DNA from: an uncultured Tidjanibacter sp.
GTDB taxonomy: Bacteria > Bacteroidota > Bacteroidia > Bacteroidales > Rikenellaceae
Direction of reading: 5' to 3'
Assembly (NCBI GenBank): GCA_947852905.1
Contig: CANTVF010000002.1
Location: 1 to 64,000 of the forward strand
DNA: 64,000 nucleotides
The position numbers were made by a program, and so were the translations under genes. The number at the start of each line of letters is the position of its first letter. Positions within the stretch are counted from its first letter, which is position 1. Positions 17,456 through 62,902 of this stretch are shown piece by piece. The notes under the pieces were generated by a model. That model was not told the DNA's origin, ran no database searches, and saw only the letters and a list, made by a program, of their open reading frames with translations.

Positions 17456-17795
17456 CATAATATGCTTCATACGAGAACTATACGAATACAAAGTATCCGC
17501 CGGACATTCCAGTTCGCTACTATCCGACGGCAGGATCGAGAGGCGTAGAATCGGCTACTAATTTCCGATATAACAAAACTGCATTACGGCCGAAATATCA
17601 TATTAATAGTTTAACAAACTCAAGCAACTAACGGAATAAGCGTTCATTATACACAATTTCACACTCACAACATTTCATATAACAAATTTGCATATAAAAT
17701 AAATTTAACTTAGTTTTGAATAATGAAAATCAGATACAACAAGTTTTTTCCTAAAATAAATTTTGTTTAACTATTAATCTATCGAATCTTATCAT
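17456..17795 (+). repeat. Downstream, intact copy of the duplicated promoter/5′ region
   Basis: Direct-repeat partner of 17157-17440, offset 298 at its start and 355 at its end because of the extra 57 nt. It carries the complete promoter and runs into the start codon of the lipoprotein gene. Confidence 0.85.
17687..17718 (+). promoter_or_regulatory. Promoter for the BACON/propeller lipoprotein
   Basis: TTTG (17687-17690), 20 nt, TAGTTTTG (17711-17718). The predicted 5′ untranslated region is about 70 nt and AT-rich, as seen upstream of other surface-protein genes in this phylum. Confidence 0.75.
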
Positions 17796-19248
17796 GAGAA
17801 GTGTTTACAAACTCGCAGCCCTTTTACCGGCATCGCTGATGTTGTTGGCCGGCTGTGCGAAAACAGACGAAAACATCCAGTTCGTCCGCCTTAAAGAGAC
17901 CACCTACTCTTTTCTGTACAAGGACAACGAGCCACAGACCGTCGCAATAGAGGCTTCGGGCCAGTGGCAGGCCGAGGCATCCGTATCGTGGATCGAGATC
18001 GTCGAGCAAACCGCCGACGGCGTGGTCATCAACGTGCAGGACAATATCGATGCTACAGAAGTACGCGAAGGCCTTCTGACGATTACATGCGGACAGGCCG
18101 TCGAGACAGTATACGTCTACCAGTTCGGCAATTCATACAGCCAATGGACCTACCGCTACCCCAACCAATTCGATATGGGTGCCGTAGTATCTCCCAACGG
18201 CCGTTACATAGCAGGACAGATTCCGTATTTGCTCGAGGACGAATCATGGGCGACCAAGGTTATTTTCATAGATACCGAAACCGGCGAATGGAATGAAATC
18301 GCCGAAGTTCCAAAAACATTGTTCGCGATACAGAAACCGTATGCGATTACGGATCAGGGAGTAGCGTTTTTCAGTGACGCCAACGGCGGCGGTTGCGCCA
18401 TGGTCGATATCGATGGCAATATAGGTAAGGTCGAGGTAGTCGACGGCTTTGAATTAGGCGGAGAAGTACAATGCGTATCGGCCGACGGTCGTCTGTGGGC
18501 AGGCTGGATGTTGGACAAATCTCTGGCATTGGGCGGTAGATATACGCCTACATTGTGGACTGACGGTGTACCGGAAGTATTGCCGATCCCCGAACTGAAC
18601 TATCGCAACGAGCCCTACAAAAGCGGTGTCATGGTACGCGGCATGAGCCATGACGGCTCCGTCCTCTACGGTTCCACATGGTGCGACAACGACCAAGGCA
18701 TGGTATATTGGAAAAAAGACGCTTCGGGCAAATATCAGGTAGATTACGTCGCAAGGGACAGGATAGAGGAGGTTGAAGAGACTGTCAACGGCATGACGAT
18801 TAAAACTGTACAGGTGGATGGAATGACCGTAACCGCCCAACTTACCAACATAAGTCCCAACGGAAAATACATAGCCGGTACATACAGGGAAGAAAACGGC
18901 TCCGGCAACTGGAAACAATACCCCGGTTTCTTCAACACGGAGACAGGCGAACTGACGACGTTTCCCGATCACGAAGGCGGGGGCGCCACGGCCACTGACG
19001 ACGGCATAGGCTTCGTCACGAACGGAACTTTCCTGCCTACTTCCGGTTCCGTCGTGGACATCGAGAACGGCGTCATGCTCGGCAGCGTCAACGACTGGGT
19101 ACTGGAGAACTACGGTATGCAGATAAATTACGGCTACATCACATATGTCTGCCCGAACGGGACGCTCAAAGCCATGTCCATAGAAGCGAATGCAGCCACT
19201 CCCCGCACCGTAACTTGGGTAATTTCGCCGGCACCGGCCAACGATTGA
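17794..19248 (+). CDS. BACON-domain / beta-propeller surface lipoprotein (family member 1)
   Basis: Lipoprotein with signal peptide and lipobox LAGC (Cys at residue 21). A BACON-like beta-sandwich domain follows (about 30-115, with GQWQAEASVSWIEI). The rest (about 120-484) has spaced SPNGRYIAG, SADGRLWAG, SHDGSVLYGS and SPNGKYIAG segments, a pattern of HAF/WD-like propeller blades. BACON domains are often found on Bacteroidota carbohydrate- or mucin-binding proteins; a binding role is inference. It is a paralogue of the three tandem genes at 57201-62507. A BACON lipoprotein gene follows after 136 nt, perhaps in the same transcript. Confidence 0.85.
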   Translation: MRSVYKLAALLPASLMLLAGCAKTDENIQFVRLKETTYSFLYKDNEPQTVAIEASGQWQAEASVSWIEIVEQTADGVVINVQDNIDATEVREGLLTITCGQAVETVYVYQFGNSYSQWTYRYPNQFDMGAVVSPNGRYIAGQIPYLLEDESWATKVIFIDTETGEWNEIAEVPKTLFAIQKPYAITDQGVAFFSDANGGGCAMVDIDGNIGKVEVVDGFELGGEVQCVSADGRLWAGWMLDKSLALGGRYTPTLWTDGVPEVLPIPELNYRNEPYKSGVMVRGMSHDGSVLYGSTWCDNDQGMVYWKKDASGKYQVDYVARDRIEEVEETVNGMTIKTVQVDGMTVTAQLTNISPNGKYIAGTYREENGSGNWKQYPGFFNTETGELTTFPDHEGGGATATDDGIGFVTNGTFLPTSGSVVDIENGVMLGSVNDWVLENYGMQINYGYITYVCPNGTLKAMSIEANAATPRTVTWVISPAPAND

Positions 19249-23937: not shown

Positions 23938-24102
23938 ATGCAACCGAACGAAAATTCCAGACAACCATATCGGAAACCTGTAATCGAACAAATCTCGGTC
24001 GTTCCTGAAAAAGGCATGGCCATATCGAACCCGCGCGGCTCGATGAACGACACCATAGACGAAACCGATTTCGGATCGGATTCATCGAGTTTCTGGGGAT
24101 AA
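23938..24102 (+). CDS. Small peptide with YxxPxI segment, candidate precursor peptide
   Basis: A 54-residue product beginning at the ATG at 23938, after an AT-rich leader; a longer in-frame start at 23884 adds a hydrophobic stretch with poor context. The N-terminal half has PYRKPVIEQISVVPEKGMAI and the C-terminal half is acidic and Ser/Gly-rich, ending in FGSDSSSFWG. YxxPx(I/L) near the N-terminus resembles both the leader motif bound by PqqD-like domains in lasso-peptide systems and a broad class of short unexplained Bacteroidota peptides. It is 23 nt upstream of a lipoprotein gene and heads the locus that contains a PqqD protein and an exporter. Precursor status is inference. Confidence 0.65.
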   Translation: MQPNENSRQPYRKPVIEQISVVPEKGMAISNPRGSMNDTIDETDFGSDSSSFWG

Positions 24103-24125
24103 ACACAATTTAAAATCACTGAAAC

Positions 24126-25052
24126 ATGAAATCAATTCTTACGGCAGCGGCATTCTCGCTGGCATGTCTGGCAATGGCATCGTGCGGTCGTCCGACCACG
24201 ACGCCGCCAGAACCGGAAACCTTGACACTGCACGCATCCATAGAGCAACCTGCACAGATAGCAGCATCGGCCACTCTGTTCGGTCGTACAGACGACAATA
24301 CACGTACCGTCATAGAGCAGGAAACGATTCCTCACCCTATCTTGTGGCAGGCCAACGACGACATAGTCGTTCGCTTCGATACCGATCCGATAAGCGTATC
24401 GAGATATTTCCACCTGGAAAGCGGAGCAGGTACAGGCAATGCAGTATTCGCATACTCAGGATTCGGAGTATCCTACGACCAGTCTGTCGAAGTTCCCGAA
24501 GAACTTCCTTCATCGTATGCCTCGATCATATCGGGCTATCCCGGAATGTTCACCACGATCCGCAGCGACAATTCCGAAATAATACTCGAAGCGCCGCGCG
24601 AAATCTTCCAAGGGCTGGAGAACATAGCCGATTTTCCCATGCACGGTATAGCCGGTGCCGACGGCAACATAGTATTTCATTGTCCGTTCGGAATAATACA
24701 TTTCCCCGTCACCGGCAACGTCGCTATCACCTCGATAACCATAGACACCTCCGAACAGGCGAAAGAGGTGTCAGGCAGATTCCTGATAGATCAGGACAGC
24801 CATACCACGGCTTTCCATGAGGCGAGCGTAGGCAGTCAGTTCTCGATATCGTGGGCAGGTAAAAGCGCTCTTCAGCTGACTTCCGATCCGGTATCGTTCT
24901 ACGCCGTACTACCGGCCGGCACCTATGCCGTAGGCACCACCTTCCAGTTCAAGCAAACCAACGGAACGGTCATAGAGAAGAAGACACTCGAAGAGTTCAC
25001 CGTCAACCGCGCCCAGATACTCAATCTCCCGACGGTATACGTCGCTCAGTAA
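24126..25052 (+). CDS. Fimbrillin-like lipoprotein, 308 aa
   Basis: Signal peptide with lipobox MASC (Cys at residue 20) followed by a proline/threonine linker. The body is beta-rich, with an N-terminal domain carrying ILWQANDDIVVRF, as seen in the fimbrillin (Mfa/FimA-like) superfamily where a strand reads W..GD.I.V. The second half (about 185-308) ends in a FTVNRAQILNLPTVYV strand resembling fimbrillin C-termini. Likely outer-membrane surface. It is probably co-transcribed with the 54-residue peptide just upstream. A link between it and the peptide/export genes is by position only. Confidence 0.75.
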   Translation: MKSILTAAAFSLACLAMASCGRPTTTPPEPETLTLHASIEQPAQIAASATLFGRTDDNTRTVIEQETIPHPILWQANDDIVVRFDTDPISVSRYFHLESGAGTGNAVFAYSGFGVSYDQSVEVPEELPSSYASIISGYPGMFTTIRSDNSEIILEAPREIFQGLENIADFPMHGIAGADGNIVFHCPFGIIHFPVTGNVAITSITIDTSEQAKEVSGRFLIDQDSHTTAFHEASVGSQFSISWAGKSALQLTSDPVSFYAVLPAGTYAVGTTFQFKQTNGTVIEKKTLEEFTVNRAQILNLPTVYVAQ

Positions 25053-25081
25053 CCGTTACGATACAAATGCGACAAGCACTA

Positions 25082-25113
25082 TTTGGACGAACTGCCGTTA
25101 TTTCGTATATTTG
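25082..25113 (+). promoter_or_regulatory. Promoter abutting a hairpin, upstream of the ABC exporter
   Basis: TTTG (25082-25085), 20 nt, TATATTTG (25106-25113). Transcription should start within a few bases of the hairpin that begins at 25117. Confidence 0.75.
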
Positions 25114-25116
25114 CAT

Positions 25117-25164
25117 AAACGGCCGGCCAGCCTCAAGAACAACCGACGGGCTGGTCGGCCGTTT
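25117..25164 (+). terminator. Very stable hairpin at the start of the exporter transcript
   Basis: Sixteen-base-pair stem (25117-25132 with 25149-25164, one G·T pair), followed by GTTTTA. It could end the upstream peptide/lipoprotein message, and for the promoter at 25082 it would form at the very 5′ end of the RNA, as an attenuator or a stabilising cap. Confidence 0.7.
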
Positions 25165-25240
25165 GTTTTACGGCGAGGCCGTACCACTATATTGCCGGCC
25201 GCTCCGGAAATAACACCGGACTACACCTTATACAACACGC

Positions 25241-26974
25241 TTGAAAACGACAGAAAACAATACGCCGAGAGCAGTTTCGATCAGGCAGGTCGTATCGCTC
25301 ATACCTCCGGACAAACGACATGGTGCGATCGGTGTTGTAGCAGGATCCGTAGCGCTGGCTCTTCTCGATTTCATAGGCATCGCCGTGCTCGTCCCGGTAT
25401 TGCTGCTCGTCCTCAACGAATCGGCGATTTCCTCCAATCCGCTACTGCAACGGTTATATGATGCATTCGGTTTCAGTTCGTTCAACTCATTCGTCATAGC
25501 CGTATGCGGTGCTGTACTGGCCGTCATCATAATAAAAAGCGCTGCGTCGTTATGGCTTACCGACCGACGCAACCGTTACCTCCTGTCGCTATACCGTTAT
25601 TTCTCCACGCGCATGTTCGACATATACCTTTCAAAAGGTCTGCTGTTCATTCGTGCCCATAACACCTCCCAACTTATAAACGACATCAACGGCGTATGCC
25701 TCCGTTTCACTGAGGGAATACTCGGCCAACTGTTTGCCATAATAACCGAAGCCATACTTTTGTGCCTCGTGGCAGCAACCCTTCTGTGGTACGATCCGGA
25801 GCTGGTACTCATAGCCATAGCAGTATTCCTGCCCTTGATGCTCGTATACTCTCTGGTATTCAAACGCAAAATGAACCGCAACGGGCGCATGGAGAACAAA
25901 CTTCTCGTCAGTCAGAACAAGACGCTTTACGAAACACTGCGCGGATATTCCGACATAGAGATCAATAATGCCGAACGATGGGTATCGAAAAGATTCCGGG
26001 ATGGTCTCCACAGTCTTACCGACTGCCGACGCAAAGCCCTGTTGGTCAAATCGTCGGCAGGCCGCATGGCCGAATTTTCACTTATTCTCGGTGTCATAGT
26101 CATGATAATCATAGGACTCGCCTCAGGCAATTCCATGTCTTCGCTCAAAGTGTCGCTCGGAATATTCGCCGTAGCCGCCTACAAAATAGTCCCGTCCGTC
26201 AGCCGCATAGTCAACAATTGGGTGGAATACAAACGCAACTCGTTCGCAGCCGAAAAGATAACCGAAACGTTCGCCGGACAACCCGCCATACGATTCGAAA
26301 GACACGACGACACGGCAATGCCGTTCCAGCATGAAATACGTTTCGAACACATCGGCTTCGGTTACGGCGACCGGACGGTTCTTAAAGATTTTTCACTGAC
26401 TATCCGAAAGGGGGAACGCATAGGAATAAGAGGATATTCAGGTGCCGGCAAAACCACCCTTTTCAATCTGCTGTGCGGTTTCTTCCCGCCTGATACCGGC
26501 CATATATCCATAGACGGCACGGTACTTTCGCCGGACAACGTACGCTCATGGCAGAACAACCTCGCCTACGTATCGCAGGACGTCTTCTTGCCCGACATTT
26601 CCATTGCCGAAAACATTGCGTTCGGCCACCCGCGCGACGAGATTTCACCTACGCGCCTTGCGGCGGCCATACGTGCAGCCTCGCTCGAAGAGCTTGTCGC
26701 CGGACTGCCGGACGGAGCAGATACCGTAGCCGGGGAAGCCGGTTGCCGCCTGTCGGGAGGGCAACGCCAGAGAATAGGCATAGCACGAGCACTATACAAG
26801 GACGCATCGGTACTGCTGTTCGACGAGGCCACCTCATCGCTCGATGCCAAAACCGAACGCGAAATAGTCGAGGCTATCGAAAGCCTGTCGTCCCGGCACA
26901 AAGAACTGACCATACTTATGATCTCCCACAGGGACAATACGCTCGCTTTCTGCGACCGTATAATAGACCTTTGA
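25241..26974 (+). CDS. ABC exporter, fused membrane and ATPase domains
   Basis: Type-I exporter half-transporter of the MsbA/peptide-export kind. The membrane domain spans about residues 25-320 with six hydrophobic segments. The ATPase domain (about 345-577) shows Walker A GYSGAGKTT, a Q-loop, signature LSGGQRQR, Walker B VLLFDEATSSLD and the H-loop ISHR. No C39 peptidase domain is fused, so leader removal, if any, would need another protease. The start appears to be TTG at 25241; there is no ATG before the first helices. The signal-peptidase gene starts 3 nt after the stop, so they are co-transcribed. Substrate unknown; peptide is the best guess from context. Confidence 0.92.
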   Translation: MKTTENNTPRAVSIRQVVSLIPPDKRHGAIGVVAGSVALALLDFIGIAVLVPVLLLVLNESAISSNPLLQRLYDAFGFSSFNSFVIAVCGAVLAVIIIKSAASLWLTDRRNRYLLSLYRYFSTRMFDIYLSKGLLFIRAHNTSQLINDINGVCLRFTEGILGQLFAIITEAILLCLVAATLLWYDPELVLIAIAVFLPLMLVYSLVFKRKMNRNGRMENKLLVSQNKTLYETLRGYSDIEINNAERWVSKRFRDGLHSLTDCRRKALLVKSSAGRMAEFSLILGVIVMIIIGLASGNSMSSLKVSLGIFAVAAYKIVPSVSRIVNNWVEYKRNSFAAEKITETFAGQPAIRFERHDDTAMPFQHEIRFEHIGFGYGDRTVLKDFSLTIRKGERIGIRGYSGAGKTTLFNLLCGFFPPDTGHISIDGTVLSPDNVRSWQNNLAYVSQDVFLPDISIAENIAFGHPRDEISPTRLAAAIRAASLEELVAGLPDGADTVAGEAGCRLSGGQRQRIGIARALYKDASVLLFDEATSSLDAKTEREIVEAIESLSSRHKELTILMISHRDNTLAFCDRIIDL

Positions 26975-26976
26975 AG

Positions 26977-27444
26977 ATGAACAACGTAAAACTGAAAGAC
27001 AACGCCGCGCTGTTCGCCGACATAGAAGACATCATTTCGTCCGGAGGACGCATACAGCTACGCGTCAAGGGTTACAGCATGCGTCCCATGTTGCGTAACG
27101 ACCGCGATCTGGCATGTCTCGCCCCCATACCGGCCGACGGTCTGCGACGCGGCATGATAGTGTTGTTCCGTTATCGCGGCAAACACGTGTTGCACCGCAT
27201 ACGCCGCATCGAAGGCGACACGCTCGTAATGAAAGGCGACGGAAACTACCGTCAACGGGAAACGGTAGAGAAAAGTGCCGTCGTAGCCTATGCCGAAGCC
27301 ATAGAACGGGACGGTGTGCGCATCGAATACCGATCGGCGACATGGCAAAGGCTCTCCGCCGCAAGTCTGATGCGAAAACACGCCAGAACGTTATATATGG
27401 ATTGCCGAAATGCGCTTAAGCGTATCGTTGGCCACACAGCCTGA
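26977..27444 (+). CDS. S26 (SipW-like) signal peptidase-type protein
   Basis: Short S24/S26-fold peptidase of 155 residues. The serine box GYSMRPML gives S34 as nucleophile. The second box reads KHVLHRI, with H73 where bacterial leader peptidases have lysine, as in SipW/archaeal-type (Ser-His) enzymes. KGDGN (about 86-90) is the next conserved element. No clear transmembrane helix is seen, although the C-terminal part is basic. It is 3 nt after the ABC exporter, so it could trim the exported peptide. The same kind of small S26 protein sits beside PqqD and HPr-kinase-like genes in other Bacteroidota loci (general family knowledge). Confidence 0.85.
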   Translation: MNNVKLKDNAALFADIEDIISSGGRIQLRVKGYSMRPMLRNDRDLACLAPIPADGLRRGMIVLFRYRGKHVLHRIRRIEGDTLVMKGDGNYRQRETVEKSAVVAYAEAIERDGVRIEYRSATWQRLSAASLMRKHARTLYMDCRNALKRIVGHTA

Positions 27445-27471
27445 CTCCACTGCGTAGCCCAATCACAAGAC

Positions 27472-27502
27472 TTTGCAGGACAGGGATTTTTTTCTATCTT
27501 TG
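27472..27502 (+). promoter_or_regulatory. Promoter for the PqqD-like gene
   Basis: TTTG (27472-27475), 19 nt, TATCTTTG (27495-27502). A perfect consensus match 68 nt before the PqqD start, so the second half of the locus can be expressed separately. Confidence 0.8.
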
Positions 27503-27570
27503 TTTATCGTCACGGAAAGCCCGGAAACAATTCCGGCCGCACGGCGGAAACATAACGCGAATCGGACAAT

Positions 27571-27840
27571 ATGAGAATCAAGAAAGGCTACAAAATAAGA
27601 GAAATAGCAGGCGAAAGCGTAATAGTCTCCATAGGCTCGCTCAACGTCGATCTGACCAAAATAATATCGCTCAACCCCACTTCCGTATGGCTTTGGGAGC
27701 GTCTCACCGACGAAGAGTTCGACGCCGAAAAGGTGGCCGACCTGTTGACCGGCAATTACGAGGTAGACCGTGCCAAAGCCCTGACCGACGCAGAGGCATG
27801 GATCGGACAGCTTCGCAAGGCGGGGTTGGTCGAAGAGTGA
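27571..27840 (+). CDS. PqqD-like peptide-recognition (RRE) protein
   Basis: Small (89-residue) stand-alone PqqD-family protein. The fold pattern is clear: N-terminal strands (KIREIAGESVIV), NVDLTKIISLNPTSVWLWERL, the hallmark of this family, and three helices ending in a basic/acidic tail (LRKAGLVEE). PqqD-like domains are the recognition element that binds precursor leaders in many ribosomal-peptide pathways. Stand-alone PqqD proteins also occur in Bacteroidota loci of unknown role. It has its own promoter and stands between the S26 peptidase and a membrane-anchored protein of unknown function. Confidence 0.9.
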   Translation: MRIKKGYKIREIAGESVIVSIGSLNVDLTKIISLNPTSVWLWERLTDEEFDAEKVADLLTGNYEVDRAKALTDAEAWIGQLRKAGLVEE

Positions 27841-28019
27841 TCGCCGCTTATGCCCCAGCATGACAAAACGGCGACTCGTGAAACTCTACGGCCACCGGTC
27901 ACACATGCACAGTAGCAGCCTTCGCAATGCAATAGTCCGCACTGTTCTTACCGTCCTATGACAAACAGAAGCGGCCGTTTACGGGCACGACATCGCATAA
28001 CGGACACAGACAATTTCGC

Positions 28020-28760
28020 ATGAAACTATTCAAGGACAAAACATGGTGGGATAACATGTCCGCCAATTTCGTCGGAGCTTTTCTCGGCATCGTCATCACA
28101 TTCGGCACGACGGCTCTGATAGACGACATTGCACGCCACCGCATGGCTAAAAAAGCCGCCCTGATAACGATAGCGCAGCTCGACAACGAAATCATGCAAA
28201 TGGAATACACTGTTGAGGAAATGCGGCACAAGGACAGCATACTGTCCTATGTAGCCAGTCGCTACCCTGACAAAATAGACGACATCAGCGCCGATACCAT
28301 CAGAATGTTCTGGCAATACGTCAAGATGCCGCCGGTCTATCTGCACGACCATTCGGCCGAAAATATCTTCACCGGCAGCATAGAAATGTGGAAAGATTTC
28401 GACGACCTCGAACTGTTGAACTCCATAAACGAATGTTTTGCCGCGAAAAATCATGTTCTGGAATTTTTCTACGACATCAACGATTATCAAAGAGAGACCT
28501 TCAATAAATTCAGTTCCGCCAAACGGACGACCGAATACGGCGACATGTGGAAGCTCACTGAAGCGTGCATAGCCCATCCGGCCGTATACGACTTCATCGG
28601 CACGCATCGTTTATACTCCACATGGCTACCGATATTCGTGCAGCTTATCAAAGATGCCAACCAGGACAACAAACAGATGGCCGACGTGTCCGACGAAGAA
28701 CTTTACTCCATGTTTCCGAGCATTTACGAAGACGATGACGAGACGGAAGACATCGAATGA
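28020..28760 (+). CDS. Unknown protein with one N-terminal membrane segment
   Basis: I do not recognise this family. Residues about 14-34 form a single hydrophobic segment (NFVGAFLGIVITFGTTALI). A basic patch and a long helical cytoplasmic or periplasmic region (about 40-210) with coiled-coil character (AQLDNEIMQMEYTVEEMR) follow. The end is very acidic (YEDDDETEDIE). The stop overlaps the start of the HPr-kinase-like gene by 4 nt (ATGA), which signals translational coupling and a shared task. It may be a scaffold for the maturation complex; that is only inference. Confidence 0.8.
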   Translation: MKLFKDKTWWDNMSANFVGAFLGIVITFGTTALIDDIARHRMAKKAALITIAQLDNEIMQMEYTVEEMRHKDSILSYVASRYPDKIDDISADTIRMFWQYVKMPPVYLHDHSAENIFTGSIEMWKDFDDLELLNSINECFAAKNHVLEFFYDINDYQRETFNKFSSAKRTTEYGDMWKLTEACIAHPAVYDFIGTHRLYSTWLPIFVQLIKDANQDNKQMADVSDEELYSMFPSIYEDDDETEDIE

Positions 28761-29686
28761 TACATACGACAATGTACACAGCAAACACGATATACCTAAA
28801 GGTTGCCGAACACGTTTTCGCCATACGCACGGACAAGCATGATGCCATGCTCCGCCGCATGGAAAGGAACTACTCGCCGTTCATCATACCCGACGGCGGC
28901 GGGCGCCTTCTCTTTTCCATAGACATAGACCGACGCACGACATTCCCTGCCGGCGATCCTGTAAAGACATTCCGGTACATGCTCGCATCGGACAATGCCG
29001 AATTGCGGATATACCCCGACAGATACCTTCTTTCAATACTGAACGTGCGTAGCGGACGCACATTTTCGGCAGTCTGCCCTATGGAGACCGACTGTAACGG
29101 CCAATATCGTTTTCACTCCGACCTGACCATACAGGGCATCGCCCCTCCCTCACACATACTGGATCATCTGCTGATATTCGCATTTTCGGTAGCCTCCGTC
29201 TCCTACGACACTCTGCTCATACATGCCTCCACTATAGTACACGGCGGCAAGGCCGTCATGTTCCTCGGAGAATCCGGAACAGGCAAATCCACCCACTCGC
29301 GCATGTGGCTGGAAAACATACCGGGCACATCTTTGCTGAACGACGACGCACCAGCCGTGCGGGCATACGGCGACGGCCGTGTCACGGCATTCGGTACCCC
29401 GTGGAGCGGCAAAACGCCGTGTTACAAAAACGAATCGTATCCGCTCGCGGCGCTCGTCAGAATCAAACGTGCCCCATACAACGAACTGTCCCGACAATCG
29501 TCCCTACACGCATTCAGTGCGGTACTGCCCTCCTCGCTACCGACCATGCAACAGGACGAACGTCTGCTCGACGCAACTTGTGCGGCGATATCTACGGTGC
29601 TGTCCTCTACGCCTGTATACGTTATGGAATGCCTGCCCGATGCGGACGCCGCCCGCACGGCACACAAAGGATTATTCCGTTCATAG
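28757..29686 (+). CDS. HPr-kinase-like ATPase
   Basis: HPr kinase/phosphorylase-fold protein. The P-loop GESGTGKST (residues 171-179) is preceded by LLIHASTIVHGGKAVMFL and followed by the LLNDDAPAV motif that coordinates metal and phosphate, and by FGTPWSGKTPCYKN. The N-terminal ~130 residues are a separate beta-rich domain of unknown role. True HPrK phosphorylates HPr, but this stand-alone form beside PqqD is a different group. In some lasso-peptide clusters a related kinase phosphorylates the precursor's C-terminal serine. Coupled by overlap to the gene before it. Confidence 0.9.
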   Translation: MIHTTMYTANTIYLKVAEHVFAIRTDKHDAMLRRMERNYSPFIIPDGGGRLLFSIDIDRRTTFPAGDPVKTFRYMLASDNAELRIYPDRYLLSILNVRSGRTFSAVCPMETDCNGQYRFHSDLTIQGIAPPSHILDHLLIFAFSVASVSYDTLLIHASTIVHGGKAVMFLGESGTGKSTHSRMWLENIPGTSLLNDDAPAVRAYGDGRVTAFGTPWSGKTPCYKNESYPLAALVRIKRAPYNELSRQSSLHAFSAVLPSSLPTMQQDERLLDATCAAISTVLSSTPVYVMECLPDADAARTAHKGLFRS

Positions 29687-57200: not shown

Positions 57201-58661
57201 TTATTTTTGGGGTCTGGGTGCTACATACCAATGGGTAGTCTTCGCCCCCATTGCACTCGACGCAAGATAGAGACTCAGGAATCTTTGTCCGTCAGGCGTC
57301 ATATACACTATGCTGCCAGGACTGGTGGCTATGCCGTAATTCTCCTGAATCCACGTCCTGTTACTGGTACTTATTACGGTACCGTTTTCGATGTCTATAA
57401 CGTCGCCGTCATTCACCATTAACCCGCCTATCGTAAAGCCGAGGCCCTCATTGGTCGCATGACGACCGCCGCCGGGACGATCTTCGAACAGATAAGCACG
57501 GTTGGTCTCCAGATTGATGAACGCCGGAAACCGCGTCTCGCTGTACGAGCCTTCATAACTCTCTCTTGCCCACGTAACCCCAAGCCATTTGCCATTCGGA
57601 CTAATATTGGTACGTTCCGCGGAAAGCTTCGGTCCGGAAAGCTGCACCACTTCGATCAATTCGCCTGAAGCATTGGTAGTCTCTACCACCTGATAATCGC
57701 GGTCTGGTGCGCCAGCCCACTGGAATTCATAACCGTTGCCGTTGTCTCGCCAGAAACATGCGCTGTTCTCCATATTGTCCCAAGAACTGCCGTAGATAAC
57801 CTTACCGTCATGACTGCAACCGCGAGCCATGAAACCAGTCGAAAGCGGCGTTCCGTGAGCTGTGGTATCAGGGATCGGCAATACTTCCGGCTCCCCGTTT
57901 ACCCACCTGATCGGATAATACATACCGGCATCGCCGTTGGCACTGCGGCAATAGCCCACCCAGATGCTTCCGTCAGCGGAAGAGCCCTGTACATTAGGTT
58001 CATTCTTGAAACCTTCGGGTTTCTTAGGTATTATTACGTTACCGTCGATGTCTATACCCTTCGTACCGCCGTCATTTGAATCGCTGATAAAAATAAGTCC
58101 CTGATCGGTAATGCATTGGGGCTGCTGTAATCCATACATATTTTCCGAAAATTCGGCGACCACGCGCGACTCGTCGGTATCCAGATCGAAAATCCAGATC
58201 TGCCAGTTGAACGTTTCGTCATCCTGAAGTACCTGATCCTCCCCGCCGACATACTTACCGCTGGGAGACATCACCAATCCAAGATCCAGATTCGACGGAT
58301 AACGATACAAATACCCGCCGGTAGCCATAGGAAGCTGATTGACGGGAATCTCCTCCGTAACACCTCCCATAGTGAAGACTATGGTAGCCTCGCGTTCGTT
58401 TTCCTGATCGTTGTCCGCTACGGTAACGGTAACACTGTCATCATTCTTTTCTCCGATAGTGATCCACGATGCCGAAGGTTCTGCTTCCCATGCGCCGGTA
58501 GCCGATACCTTTACCGTCGCCGGAGCATTACCGTCTCCGAGAAACGACAGGTTTGCAACGTCTAATCTGAGATACTCGTACTTGGTCTCCTCGGTCTGAC
58601 AACCCGACAAGACGGCTGCCGCAAGCAGGCCGATGCCCGCAATAGCACAAAACTTTTTCAT
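57201..58661 (-). CDS. BACON / beta-propeller surface lipoprotein (family member 2)
   Basis: 486 residues. Signal peptide and lipobox LSGC (Cys at 21), then a BACON-like domain (about 30-110; ATGAWEAEPSASWITIGEK), then a propeller of repeated units (SPSGKYVGG, SSADGSIWVG, CSHDGKVIYGSSW, SPNGKWLGV). Very close in sequence to the next gene (59148-60617) and clearly related to those at 61044 and 17794. Each copy has its own terminator and an AT-rich leader ending AACCTAAATCAGAC before the ATG. A minus-strand TAAATTTG box at 58791-58798 with GTTG 20 nt upstream is a likely promoter. Ligand unknown. Confidence 0.87.
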   Translation of the reverse strand: MKKFCAIAGIGLLAAAVLSGCQTEETKYEYLRLDVANLSFLGDGNAPATVKVSATGAWEAEPSASWITIGEKNDDSVTVTVADNDQENEREATIVFTMGGVTEEIPVNQLPMATGGYLYRYPSNLDLGLVMSPSGKYVGGEDQVLQDDETFNWQIWIFDLDTDESRVVAEFSENMYGLQQPQCITDQGLIFISDSNDGGTKGIDIDGNVIIPKKPEGFKNEPNVQGSSADGSIWVGYCRSANGDAGMYYPIRWVNGEPEVLPIPDTTAHGTPLSTGFMARGCSHDGKVIYGSSWDNMENSACFWRDNGNGYEFQWAGAPDRDYQVVETTNASGELIEVVQLSGPKLSAERTNISPNGKWLGVTWARESYEGSYSETRFPAFINLETNRAYLFEDRPGGGRHATNEGLGFTIGGLMVNDGDVIDIENGTVISTSNRTWIQENYGIATSPGSIVYMTPDGQRFLSLYLASSAMGAKTTHWYVAPRPQK

Positions 58662-59021
58662 GTCTGATTTAGGTTAATATAAGTTTATAAAAAGGTTGAT
58701 AGGTCTTAAGTCCGTCTACAATTCCCAACAGCCGACACTATGGCTGCCATAAAAGAATCCCGTAAACGTTTTTTGAAAAACAAGTGTAATCAAATTTACA
58801 AACAATTCCGTTTCTTAGCAACTATTATCGCAAATTTATTTCGCAAAAATCAATTTTCATTCAACAATGTCACTGTACACAACCATACAACACACCTCGT
58901 AGGAAACTATCTCTGCTTGTTCGGGCGACAATTTCCGTACAAAAGACATCCTTTACCGACGGCAACAGTAACAATAATATATGTCGATAAGAAAGTGTAC
59001 ACCAATGCATCGAATAAAAAA
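58662..59021. other. 360-bp gap between tandem paralogues
   Basis: Holds the leader and promoter of the gene at 57201 (minus-strand TAAATTTG at 58791-58798). No other gene seen. Confidence 0.5.
58791..58822 (-). promoter_or_regulatory. Promoter of BACON/propeller lipoprotein 2
   Basis: Minus-strand TAAATTTG (58791-58798) and GTTG (58819-58822) spaced by 20 nt; the −33 box differs from consensus by one base. Confidence 0.5.
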
Positions 59022-59050
59022 ACAGGGAGGCTCCATAAAGCCACCCTGCC
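59022..59050 (-). terminator. Terminator after BACON/propeller lipoprotein 3
   Basis: GC-rich stem with one internal mismatch, followed by six Ts on the minus strand, about 100 nt past the stop. Confidence 0.7.
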
Positions 59051-59147
59051 TCAAACACATTCCGAAAAAACTATTCCGCAAGCCTAAAGACTTTCTGATT
59101 TTCGGTGTATTTCATAAAAAGTCACCAAACATATAGCCGCATAACGA

Positions 59148-60617
59148 TCATTCCTGCGGTCTGGGAGCTACGTACCAATGCGTCGTCCTCGCGCCCGTAG
59201 CCACATCATCGGCAAGACATAGACTGATAAATCGCTGCATATCGGGAGTCATGTAAACTATACTACCCGGACTGGTAGCTATGCCGTAATTATCCTTAAT
59301 CCAGTCGTACATGTTACCTAGAACAGCACCTGTCTCTATCTCTACGACCTTACCGCTGTTGGTCATAAGACCGTCGATAGTAAAGCCCAATCCATCATTG
59401 GTCGCATGCCTTGCGCCTGCACCTATACCGAGATCTTCGTACAAATAGGCCTTGTTCGTCTCCAGATTGATGAATGCAGGAAACCTCGTCTCTGCATAAC
59501 CTCCGTCACCTTCATACTTCTCCCTGCACCATGTAACTGCCAACCATTTTCCGTTCGGACTGATATTGGTACGCTCAGCAGAGAGCTTCGGTCCGGAAAG
59601 CTGCCTTACCTTTACCTGTTCTCCAGAAGCATTGACATAATCGAGTTCCTGTAAGTCGCGGTCGGGAGCACCCGCCCACTGGAATTCATAACCGTTGCCG
59701 TTGTTCCTCCAGAAACATGCGCTATTCTCCATATTGTCCCAAGAGCTACCATAGATAACCTTTCCGTCATGGCTACACCCACGCGCCATTACACCTGTAG
59801 TTTGGGGCGTCCCGTGTGCAGTGGTATCAGGAATAGGCAATACCTCCGGCTTTCCGTTTACCCACAAAATTGGATAGTACATACCGGCATCGCCGTTGGC
59901 GCTGCGACAATATCCTACCCATATGCTGCCGTCGGCAGATGATCCCTGCACGCTTGGCTCATTTTGAAAACCATCGGGCTTCTCGGGAACTATAACATTC
60001 CCGTCAAGGTCGATACCCTTGGTGCCGCCGTCATTTGAATCACTGATAAAAATAAGTCCCTGATCGGTAATGCATTGGGGTTGCTGCAATCCGTACATAT
60101 TCTCCGAAAATTCGGCGACCATGCGCGACTCGTCGGTATCCAGATCGAAAATCCAGATCTGCCAGTTGAATGTTTGATCGTCCTGAAGCACCTGATCTTC
60201 TCCACCGACATACTTACCGTTGGGAGACATGACCAATCCCAAATCCAAAGTAGCAGGGTAACGGTACATATATCCGCCCATCTCCATAGGAAGCTGGTTA
60301 ACGGGAATCTCCTCGACAGCATCACCCATAGTGAACACTATAGAGGACTGACGTTCGTTTTCCTGATCGTTGTCAGAAACAGTAACTGTAACACTGTCAT
60401 CGCTCTTTTCGCTGATAGTAATCCACGACGCCGAAGGTTCTGCTTCCCATGCACCGGTAGCCGATACCTTTATCGTCGCCGGAGCATTACCGTCTCCGAG
60501 AAACGACAGATTTGCAACATCGAATTTGAGATACTCGTACTTGGTCTCCTCGGTCTGACAACCCGACAAGACGACTGCCACAAACAGGCCGATGCCTGCA
60601 GCGAAAAACTTTTTCAT
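59148..60617 (-). CDS. BACON / beta-propeller surface lipoprotein (family member 3)
   Basis: 489 residues, same layout as its neighbour at 57201: lipobox LSGC, a BACON-like domain (about 28-108) and a propeller with SPNGKYVGG, SSADGSIWVG, SHDGKVIYGSSW, SPNGKWLAVTW. Identity with the neighbour is very high across the whole length. Differences cluster near about 235-330 and in the last 80 residues (EIETGAVLGNMYDWIKDNYG). A minus-strand TAATTTTG box lies at 60730-60737. Confidence 0.87.
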   Translation of the reverse strand: MKKFFAAGIGLFVAVVLSGCQTEETKYEYLKFDVANLSFLGDGNAPATIKVSATGAWEAEPSASWITISEKSDDSVTVTVSDNDQENERQSSIVFTMGDAVEEIPVNQLPMEMGGYMYRYPATLDLGLVMSPNGKYVGGEDQVLQDDQTFNWQIWIFDLDTDESRMVAEFSENMYGLQQPQCITDQGLIFISDSNDGGTKGIDLDGNVIVPEKPDGFQNEPSVQGSSADGSIWVGYCRSANGDAGMYYPILWVNGKPEVLPIPDTTAHGTPQTTGVMARGCSHDGKVIYGSSWDNMENSACFWRNNGNGYEFQWAGAPDRDLQELDYVNASGEQVKVRQLSGPKLSAERTNISPNGKWLAVTWCREKYEGDGGYAETRFPAFINLETNKAYLYEDLGIGAGARHATNDGLGFTIDGLMTNSGKVVEIETGAVLGNMYDWIKDNYGIATSPGSIVYMTPDMQRFISLCLADDVATGARTTHWYVAPRPQE

Positions 60618-60940
60618 GTCTGATTTAGGTTAAAATAAGGTTGACAACACTTGCTTATACGCATCAATCTTCCGCCACGCCGCCCGTATCGATCATCGAA
60701 CAGTCGTGGTTTCTAAAATCCGCATAAAACAAAATTAAAAACAAATACATTCTCAAACAATAGTCTGCGCCACCTTATTCAATATTCAATTGAAACAGAT
60801 TTTGCTATAAACAACAATATAAATATACCATATACCGACATACGGAATATGTCGTGAATCATTTACAGTCCCCTGTCTTCATTTTTATGTCCGCCTGTAG
60901 TAGACCCATCACATGACATACCGCCACAACATTGCCATCG
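60618..60940. other. About 320-bp gap between tandem paralogues
   Basis: Leader and promoter region of the gene at 59148. Nothing else seen. Confidence 0.45.
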
Positions 60941-60974
60941 AAAAAACGACTGGGCGGTTTGAAACCGCCCAGTC
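60941..60974 (-). terminator. Terminator after BACON/propeller lipoprotein 4
   Basis: Stem of at least 11 bp (60948-60958 with 60964-60974); on the minus strand it is followed by six Ts. It is about 70 nt past the stop. Confidence 0.88.
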
Positions 60975-61043
60975 ACAATTATCCTATACACATCCAATTG
61001 CTCGGAAATCGTACAATAGTAGCAGAATATTCGTACGCACACG

Positions 61044-62507
61044 TCACCTTCCCGGTCTGGGAGCTACGTACCAATGCGTCGTCCGGAAACCTGTCATCAC
61101 GCTCGGCGCATAATATAAACTCAGAAATTCTTGCGAATCCGGAGCCACATACACGATACAACCCGGACCGGTAACGATTCCGTAATTATCCGATATCCAA
61201 TCCGCTACACTGCTTATGATAATCGAATCGTCCACACTTACAACCCGACCGCTATTGGCAAGAAAACCGTCCGTCGTAAAACCCGTTCCATCATCCGTTA
61301 CATGACAGGCACCTCCCGGCAACTCCTCGAACATATACACCTTGTCCGTCTCCAGATCTATGAATGCCGGACATTCTATTTCCTGATAAGAGTTCAACGT
61401 ATATTGTTCTCGGCACCACGTCACCGCAAGCCACCGTCCGTCGGGACTTATATTAGTCGCCGTCTCCTCGATCTTGGGCCCCGCCAGCTGCGGTACCGTT
61501 ATCAACTCATCCATAGAGTTCATGGTCTCTACCATTTGCAAGTCACGAGCGCCCGCAGCAGCCCAGTGGAATTCGTCGTTCTTCCAATAACATGCACTAT
61601 ACTCACGGTTGTCCCTCGAACTTCCGTATATTACCGAGCCGTCATGACTGCATCCGTAGGCCATGACACCGCCGAGTACGTCGTCTACGAAAGGTTTGCC
61701 GTGCGCATTATTCTCAGGTGTAGGCAAAACTTCCGGAACTCCGTCCACCCATTTTACAGGATAATACCGACCGTCGAAACCGGTACCGTCGCGCTGCCAA
61801 CCGACCCAAACACGTCCGTCGGCCGAAGTACCCTGCACATTGGGTGCTCCTGCGAAACCCTCGATCCCGGCAGGTACTATAAAATTACCGTCGGGATTCA
61901 CACCGATTGTACCTCCGCTATGATAATCGCGGACGAATACGACTCCGTCATTGGTTATGCAACGCGGCTCCTGAAATCCGTAAATCGCATTGGGAATTTC
62001 GGCGACCATACGCGACTCGTCCCTCTCCAGATCGAATACCCATATTTGATAATTGAACGACTCGTCCTCCTGCAGCGCCTGCTCCACGCCTCCGACATAT
62101 TTGCCGTCGGGAGACATGACCAGTCCAAGATCCAGATGTCCCGGATAACGATACACGTACTCGCTTCCGACGACACCGAGCTGGTTGACGGGTATCTCCT
62201 CGACAACCTCCCCCATAGTGAACACAATCTTTGCCTCGCGTTCCGATCCGTTGTCATTCATATCCGCCGCGACGGTAACGCTCCCCGAAGTCTTGTCGGT
62301 AACGACAAGCCATGAAGCGGAAGGCTCCGCATTCCACTCTCCCGTAGCCGTAACCTTTACCGTGACCGGCACACCGCCATCGCCAGCGAATGAAATATTG
62401 GCCATATCGAACACGATATATTCATACCGCGTATCTACCTCCTTACATCCCGTCATCGAAGCCGCAGCCAACAACAACAGGCTCGCAATAGTCGAAATCT
62501 TTTTCAT
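61044..62507 (-). CDS. BACON / beta-propeller surface lipoprotein (family member 4)
   Basis: 487 residues from the ATG at 62507 (MKKISTIASLLLLAAASMTGC, Cys at 21). A longer start at 62582 is not supported. The BACON-like domain (about 28-110, ATGEWNAEPSASWLVVTDK) is followed by propeller repeats with SPDGKYVGG, SADGRVWVG, SHDGSVIYGSS and SPDGRWLAVTW. It has diverged from the other two tandem copies. It is the most upstream of the three on the minus strand. Confidence 0.87.
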   Translation of the reverse strand: MKKISTIASLLLLAAASMTGCKEVDTRYEYIVFDMANISFAGDGGVPVTVKVTATGEWNAEPSASWLVVTDKTSGSVTVAADMNDNGSEREAKIVFTMGEVVEEIPVNQLGVVGSEYVYRYPGHLDLGLVMSPDGKYVGGVEQALQEDESFNYQIWVFDLERDESRMVAEIPNAIYGFQEPRCITNDGVVFVRDYHSGGTIGVNPDGNFIVPAGIEGFAGAPNVQGTSADGRVWVGWQRDGTGFDGRYYPVKWVDGVPEVLPTPENNAHGKPFVDDVLGGVMAYGCSHDGSVIYGSSRDNREYSACYWKNDEFHWAAAGARDLQMVETMNSMDELITVPQLAGPKIEETATNISPDGRWLAVTWCREQYTLNSYQEIECPAFIDLETDKVYMFEELPGGACHVTDDGTGFTTDGFLANSGRVVSVDDSIIISSVADWISDNYGIVTGPGCIVYVAPDSQEFLSLYYAPSVMTGFRTTHWYVAPRPGR

Positions 62508-62902
62508 AATATGAAGGTTATTTAGGTTAAATAAGGTCAACGCAAGCAACGGCCGCAGGCAAAACCGCTTCCAATACGCCATACGGCAAATACGGTATAC
62601 GAGATACGCTATTCTTTATCACAATATACTAAAAATTTCATAGCATAGCAAAATAATATGCCCTCCAATTATATACACTATATAAACACGTCGTGCCATA
62701 ACACACATCGGTTCCCGATGCCATATTCGCTCCGCGACCTTCCGGAAACATTGTACACAACGCTCGTACAGACAATACCCAAATACAAACAAAGGAAAAT
62801 AGATCTCGTAACCCAAATATCCGCCTATGCCGCCCGCCTCTCCGCCACATTTTCCTGACGCGAACAATCCGATTTTACACAATCACGGAAAACGCCAAAC
62901 CA
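62508..62902. other. About 395-bp gap upstream of lipoprotein 4
   Basis: AT-rich leader just before the ATG (AACCTAAATAACCTTC), otherwise nothing recognised. Confidence 0.45.

Follow-up and report, generated by a model that had tools for sequence, protein, structure and literature searches.

The DNA examined here is a stretch of 64,000 nucleotides from an uncultured Tidjanibacter sp. (Bacteroidales, Rikenellaceae; assembly GCA_947852905.1, contig CANTVF010000002.1, positions 1 to 64,000), referred to below as the window. Positions 23938-29686 hold seven frames, all on the + strand, for a 54-residue peptide, a lipoprotein, an ATP-binding cassette (ABC) exporter, an S24/S26 peptidase, a PqqD-type protein, a membrane protein and an HprK-like kinase, which an earlier note on this DNA had taken for an unclassified peptide maturation and export locus. 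By analogy with the Linear Polyphosphorylated Peptides (LPPs) of Paenibacillus alginolyticus, we consider it likely that the exporter, the peptidase, the PqqD protein and the kinase make up the LPP machinery in its Bacteroidales form, and that a family of small precursor peptides is linked to it.

LPPs were described from the lpp cluster by Popov et al. 2026 (PMC13381572) as a class of ribosomally synthesized and post-translationally modified peptides (RiPPs), so the designation "unclassified" no longer applies. According to the main text of that paper, the precursor has the leader YxxPxVLxHQxIxFETxxS, and the set comprises a RiPP recognition element (RRE), an HprK-like kinase phosphorylating Ser3 of the core, a SipW-like leader peptidase that requires the RRE, an MsbA-like exporter, and a nucleoside triphosphate (NTP) transferase that co-occurs with the other genes, yet could be deleted without effect in the test host.

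Gene content and transcription units

The features of the locus are as follows (UTR, untranslated region).

23938..24102, +, candidate precursor peptide (LppA-like), 54 aa, with Y11..P14..E24-x-G26-M27-A28-x-S30 and a core ending in FWG
23968..24021, +, predicted RRE-binding/leader motif Y11-A28, from the alignment and the analogy with LppA (PMC13381572, main text), with a putative cut after G-M-A
24025..24027, +, Ser30, putative site of phosphorylation, a position with S/T in 45 of 46 aligned peptides
24126..25052, +, partner lipoprotein, whose homologue in relatives lies immediately 3' of an FWx-type peptide
25082..25113, +, Bacteroidetes-type promoter pattern 5' of the exporter, from a pattern scan
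25115..25166, +, strong hairpin in the lipoprotein/exporter gap, terminator-like or a 5'-UTR structure
25241..26974, +, MsbA-like ABC exporter (LppD-like), TTG start, from profile searches
26977..27444, +, S24/S26 peptidase, SipW/Sec11-like (LppS-like), no predicted anchor, Ser34, His73 and Asp88 invariant
27472..27502, +, Bacteroidetes-type promoter pattern 5' of pqqD, from a pattern scan
27571..27840, +, discrete PqqD-type RRE (LppB-like), from profile searches
28020..28760, +, accessory membrane protein with one hydrophobic stretch, beside the kinase in 3 of 21 neighbourhoods (window, G019, G065)
28757..29686, +, HprK-like kinase (LppK-like) with GESGTGKSTH and LNDD motifs

The layout agrees with the earlier note in strand and in the 4 nt shared by the membrane protein and kinase frames; the exporter and the peptidase are separated by 2 nt rather than 3. 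Its two consensus promoters fared differently according to type. Patterns of the sigma-70 type occur at chance level between 23600 and 30500 (7 found versus 7.0 expected). The Bacteroidetes-type promoter consensus, TTTG-N18-22-TAnnTTTG, was found 15 times in the whole window versus 0.63 expected, one copy (25733) lying within the exporter gene, and it does precede both the exporter and pqqD. The hairpin at 25115-25166 (19 pairs, -36.8 kcal/mol, z -6.5) begins right after the first of these two patterns, and may thus be either the end of the first transcript or a 5'-UTR fold of the next. Together, the hairpin and the two patterns suggest that there are probably three transcription units: peptide and lipoprotein; exporter and peptidase; PqqD protein, membrane protein and kinase. 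In the congeners G053 and G059 some 50 kb separate the exporter-peptidase unit from the PqqD-kinase unit; none of the four machinery genes is missing, and this split falls at the boundary between the second and third units of the window. A single operon for the seven genes was rejected on the basis of the congener neighbourhoods, the hairpin and the promoter patterns.

Profile searches placed the exporter closest to the MsbA-like NCBIfam model TIGR02203 (4.7e-77, below that model's cut-off). The PqqD protein matches PF05402 (1.9e-14) and the lasso RRE TfuB1 (1.7e-05), as well as the lasso RRE model NF033530 below its cut-off (4.8e-07). For the kinase no Pfam family exceeded its cut-off, and an HprK-related NCBIfam match (1.2e-04) also lay below cut-off. 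The assignment as HprK-like was firmed up by the predicted structure (predicted local distance difference test, pLDDT, 94.9), since 49 of the 50 solved structures listed in the fold search were phosphoenolpyruvate carboxykinase or HPr kinase, with modest template modelling (TM) scores by query length of 0.24-0.46; GKSTH and DD are invariant in the kinase alignment. The best NCBIfam model for the peptidase was TIGR02228, the archaeal-type signal peptidase I (2.9e-07, below cut-off), and the best solved structure by sequence was SEC11A (4.8e-04). Its Ser34, His73 and Asp88 are invariant across 31 aligned rows, the model (pLDDT 93.5) has the common S24/S26 fold, and there is no strong hydrophobic stretch, hence no predicted membrane anchor.

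The peptide, the lipoprotein and the membrane protein of the window matched no family above cut-off in the profile searches. The membrane protein, which the earlier note had counted among the core components, accompanies the kinase in three of 21 machinery neighbourhoods, those of the window itself and of two relatives (G019 and G065), and is accessory. No NTP transferase gene lies within the window locus. NTP_transf_5, the LppN-like family, was above cut-off in 12 of 14 genomes, and the genome of the window has two copies in trans (L193, 7156-8238 on contig C1; L194, 7232-8347 on contig C5), both adjoining a polysaccharide or glycosyltransferase gene. NTP_transf_5 is part of the machinery cluster in G013 and G002, and the group occurs in 13 (3 of them Pfam-checked) of 79 kinase loci, a set without duplicates drawn from the best 80 of at least 553 confirmed relatives. 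The machinery matches all of the LPP set except the transferase, which is placed elsewhere in the genome.

A peptide family and its association with the machinery

The small peptides share the leader Y-x-x-P-x-[V/I]-E...E-x-G-[F/I/M]-A-x-[S/T], which is followed by a variable core. Among 49 distinct peptides, Tyr and Pro are present in all 49, as expected from a collection gathered with a motif and a model that already contain both; Glu is found in 48 of 48, Gly in 45 of 46, Ala in 40 of 46, and S/T two places on in 45 of 46. Signal-peptidase cuts follow a -3/-1 rule. The G-x-A followed by x-Ser would fit a cut of this type, in which case Ser would be the second residue of the core.

The profile used for detection (A4) was built from 21 peptides, none of which has a Pfam or NCBIfam match, and 13 of its rows come from kinase neighbourhoods, 11 of them among the 79 loci and the others being the window and L061. 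The remaining 8 peptides are all far from the machinery, and a model made from these alone still detects the window peptide with an E value of 1e-20, as well as 15 peptides distributed over 13 of the 79 kinase loci, with no matches in reversed proteins in either case; this count takes in one L144 peptide missed by A4 and is without L114. The linkage is thus not merely a product of the seeds. A loose regular expression gave 30 matches in the scanned loci and the window, several of them plainly due to chance, versus 3 in reversed sequence. The window peptide is a real gene, as shown by its homologues in other genomes and by its detection with the 8-peptide model. The idea of one dedicated substrate, as in the earlier note, is not supported, as its own genome holds three matches to the family. 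The largest repertoire observed, 22 matches, is that of one Rikenellaceae genome (G148/G517, probably the same genome, since counts and positions agree).

Across 150 Rikenellaceae genomes the peptide family (A4) was detected in 80 and the kinase in 79, with both in 77, neither in 68, the kinase only in 2 and the peptide only in 3 (Fisher p 3e-36). Completeness is 54-89% in the five discordant genomes; for the 99 genomes with 90% or more the two tallies are identical, at 59 each. By genus, 7 of 22 have both, 1 the kinase only and 14 neither. The machinery recurs across Bacteroidales, and in 295 genomes of that order the peptide was found in 10, the kinase in 38 and both in 8 (p 1.4e-06, or 3e-04 when three Rikenellaceae are left out), the kinase match being weak in one of the 8 (G187).

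Among the 79 kinase loci, an S26 peptidase lies nearby in 71, a PqqD protein in 47, the window-type exporter in 39, an exporter of a second type in 15, and either exporter in 54; gene content was taken from homology, since longest-open reading frame (ORF) calling was unreliable in GC-rich loci. The 76 genomes behind these loci (27 of 28 loci picked partly for peptides, L095 being left out, plus 50 more, with L149 left aside, its genome (G451) being among those already counted) hold 311 peptide matches in 187 Mb, spread over 54 genomes. Fifteen of the 311, in 13 genomes, lie inside kinase loci versus 1.9 expected (p 3e-09), as assigned by hand from coordinates and with two peptides within 1 kb outside a locus (the third of G446 and one of G456) left uncounted.

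Peptide, lipoprotein and machinery are consecutive on one strand in L093 (Bacteroides oleiciplenus), L112 (P. sartorii), L135, L151 and L175, the L175 peptide match being weak (2e-03), and in L114 and L121 the peptide is directly 5' of the kinase with no lipoprotein between them. Some frames are interrupted in the analysed sequence (lipoprotein, exporter and kinase of L112; one exporter of L093). In Bacteroides oleiciplenus two of the three detected peptides are in the locus and the third is at most 1 kb away. L093 also has, within 20 kb, a tandem pair of peptide-lipoprotein-(Wzz-domain)-ABC-HprK modules, the Wzz domain having been checked for the first.

Five congeners gave the peptide in a single-sequence search (G019, G037, G053, G059 and G065), and in all of them peptide and kinase lie at separate places. 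The seven genes thus do not form one conserved locus, contrary to what had been supposed. The earlier note had also held that machinery without peptide in related genomes, or the reverse, would make the link wrong. Judged by adjacency in these congeners the two do separate and the link fails, whereas by presence in the genome they stay together. That the peptide is unrelated to the machinery because the two lie apart in the congeners was considered, and dropped in view of the distant-genus operons and the genome-wide co-occurrence. Given these two lines of evidence and the LPP set as published (PMC13381572, main text), it is very likely that the PqqD, HprK, S26 and ABC proteins act on the family of the 54-residue peptide, as the note proposed.

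Probable lipoprotein partners of the peptides

A lipoprotein-type gene begins at most 450 nt downstream of 34 of the 49 peptides (34 of the 41 that have a downstream ORF) versus 171 of 1430 control ORFs, where lipoproteins were flagged by a home-made pattern and control ORFs were counted only if a downstream ORF was present. In five congeners, an FWx-type peptide is directly 5' of a homologue of the window lipoprotein. For 33 peptide-lipoprotein pairs, with lipoprotein families defined as single-linkage groups, core similarity was 2.09 within a lipoprotein family versus 1.10 (0 of 5000 permutations). For leader similarity, the internal control of the core test, the values were 2.14 versus 2.20 (3389 of 5000). 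The cores track the partner lipoprotein and the leaders do not, related species adding to the core result. The L165 pair and an N-masked L093 copy, which lacked the motif, were dropped from this test, and one pair is present twice (L093 and L149). A Pfam scan of ten of the lipoproteins gave mixed domains (fimbrillin-like/PCMD, DUF4465), and six had none.

By eye, the list of ORFs also shows a tandem of three lipoproteins, alike and 486-512 aa long, at 57201-62582 of the window (- strand), and another like them at 17794-19248 (+ strand).

Proposed maturation route, alternatives and known systems

The best reading of these data is that several precursors encoded in trans depend on a single LPP-type machinery for their maturation. 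The PqqD protein, as the RRE, would grip the Y-x-x-P-x-[V/I]-E leader of the small precursors, and the HprK-like kinase would phosphorylate the conserved Ser right after it. The SipW-like peptidase would then remove the leader, probably after G-x-A, and the exporter would carry the linear phosphopeptide core out of the cell. The core is probably received or displayed by the partner lipoprotein, a guess from the pairing of the genes; for many trans-encoded precursors the next gene immediately 3' specifies a lipoprotein, which is probably that core's partner. It is possible, though somewhat doubtful, that such an arrangement is widespread in Bacteroidales and that every core, once matured, has the lipoprotein encoded beside it as its dedicated partner (e.g. 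as a ligand, cap or assembly factor), with one kinase/peptidase set licensing a whole repertoire of surface proteins.

Several observations weigh against an LPP-type machinery acting on these peptides. The Rikenellaceae peptides found with the window query sit apart from the machinery, 22 of the 76 genomes with the best kinase loci have no detected peptide, and of the 15 in-locus peptides only 8 are on the kinase strand, so that the 7 on the opposite strand are near the kinase and outside its operon. Order-wide, 30 of the 38 kinase-positive genomes lack a detected peptide, many of these kinase matches being weak, and in G314 (99% complete) a peptide was matched, whereas no kinase reached E<=0.01. 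The co-occurrence partly reflects shared ancestry, which is allowed for only by the genus and order counts. In the fold search with the peptidase, LexA came first and signal peptidases including SEC11A lower. Relative to the LPP leader (PMC13381572, main text), the full consensus HQxIxFETxxS is absent from that of the 49 peptides, and the Y-to-S spacing is 19 instead of 18.

Some of these points would suit the small ORF being a structural or regulatory partner, or an upstream ORF, of the lipoprotein, with the machinery acting elsewhere and co-occurring by ancestry alone. Adjacency to a lipoprotein (34/49) is steadier than adjacency to the machinery, the core follows the lipoprotein, and G314 has a peptide without a kinase. 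Such an arrangement is nevertheless unlikely, because presence of peptide and kinase is near-perfectly matched in the 150 genomes, also by genus and outside the family; G088 and G022 lack both despite many both-positive members of their genera; the leader is constant across unrelated lipoprotein partners and includes an RRE-type motif; and in L114 and L121 no lipoprotein intervenes between peptide and kinase.

A genuine lasso-peptide pathway, intact or decayed, with cyclase and leader peptidase elsewhere, would account for the YxxP leader and for the resemblance of the PqqD protein to lasso RREs in the TfuB1 and sub-cut-off NF033530 matches. We regard it as very improbable: the lasso B2 leader-peptidase domain (Transglut_core3, PF13471) was found in 0 of 14 genomes, including that of the window, versus 2 of 14 control genomes (no whole-genome search for an Asn-synthetase-like cyclase was made), and a SipW-like peptidase is the leader peptidase of LPPs (PMC13381572, main text). 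The earlier suggestion of phosphorylation plus proteolysis outside the lasso route is upheld in its RiPP logic and in the missing lasso domain, and for the chemistry itself it is an extrapolation by homology. Just as improbable is a dedicated seven-gene locus, membrane protein included, acting on a single peptide; the seven genes are contiguous in the window, but the modules are separable in congeners and probably form three transcription units, the membrane protein is rarely beside the kinase, and the genome has three peptides.

If the LPP-type reading is correct, a RiPP class called Bacillota-restricted extends to a major group of gut bacteria, and a precursor family without a Pfam or NCBIfam model (311 matches, 76 genomes) is tied to a machinery whose architecture is unusual, with dispersed precursors, many of them with a lipoprotein. 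LPP function would also become testable in Bacteroides and Phocaeicola. The main text of PMC13381572, in which "Bacteroid" does not occur, terms LPPs restricted to Bacillota and the cluster of their peptidase "predominantly" Bacillota. We recognised no report of an LPP-type system in Bacteroidota in the open-access literature searched (preprints excluded, few subscription papers). PMC7533575 mentions PqqD, HPr kinase and nucleotidyltransferase in connection with lasso clusters of the rumen.

With SipW/Sec11 (S26B) and LexA (S24) the peptidase shares the beta fold, and its Ser and His are at signal-peptidase-type places; the difference is that it has no predicted membrane anchor. The system resembles that of phosphorylated lasso peptides of the paeninodin type, as these are characterised in the main text of PMC13381572, in its HprK-like kinase, NTP transferase, discrete RRE and aromatic-xxP leader, and differs from it in having an S26-type peptidase in place of the B2 domain, for which the 14 genomes gave no match. 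It departs from the LPP systems of that paper in phylum, in a leader with E-x-G-[FIM]-A-x-S instead of HQxIxFET, in a peptidase His-Asp spacing of 15 versus 25 in LppS, in precursors that are dispersed, often several per genome and in many cases accompanied by a lipoprotein, and in a window locus without the transferase. It shares with them a discrete RRE, an HprK-like kinase, a SipW-like peptidase, an MsbA-like exporter and an NTP transferase, here in trans, together with precursors that have a YxxP leader, a conserved Ser shortly after it and a variable C terminus.

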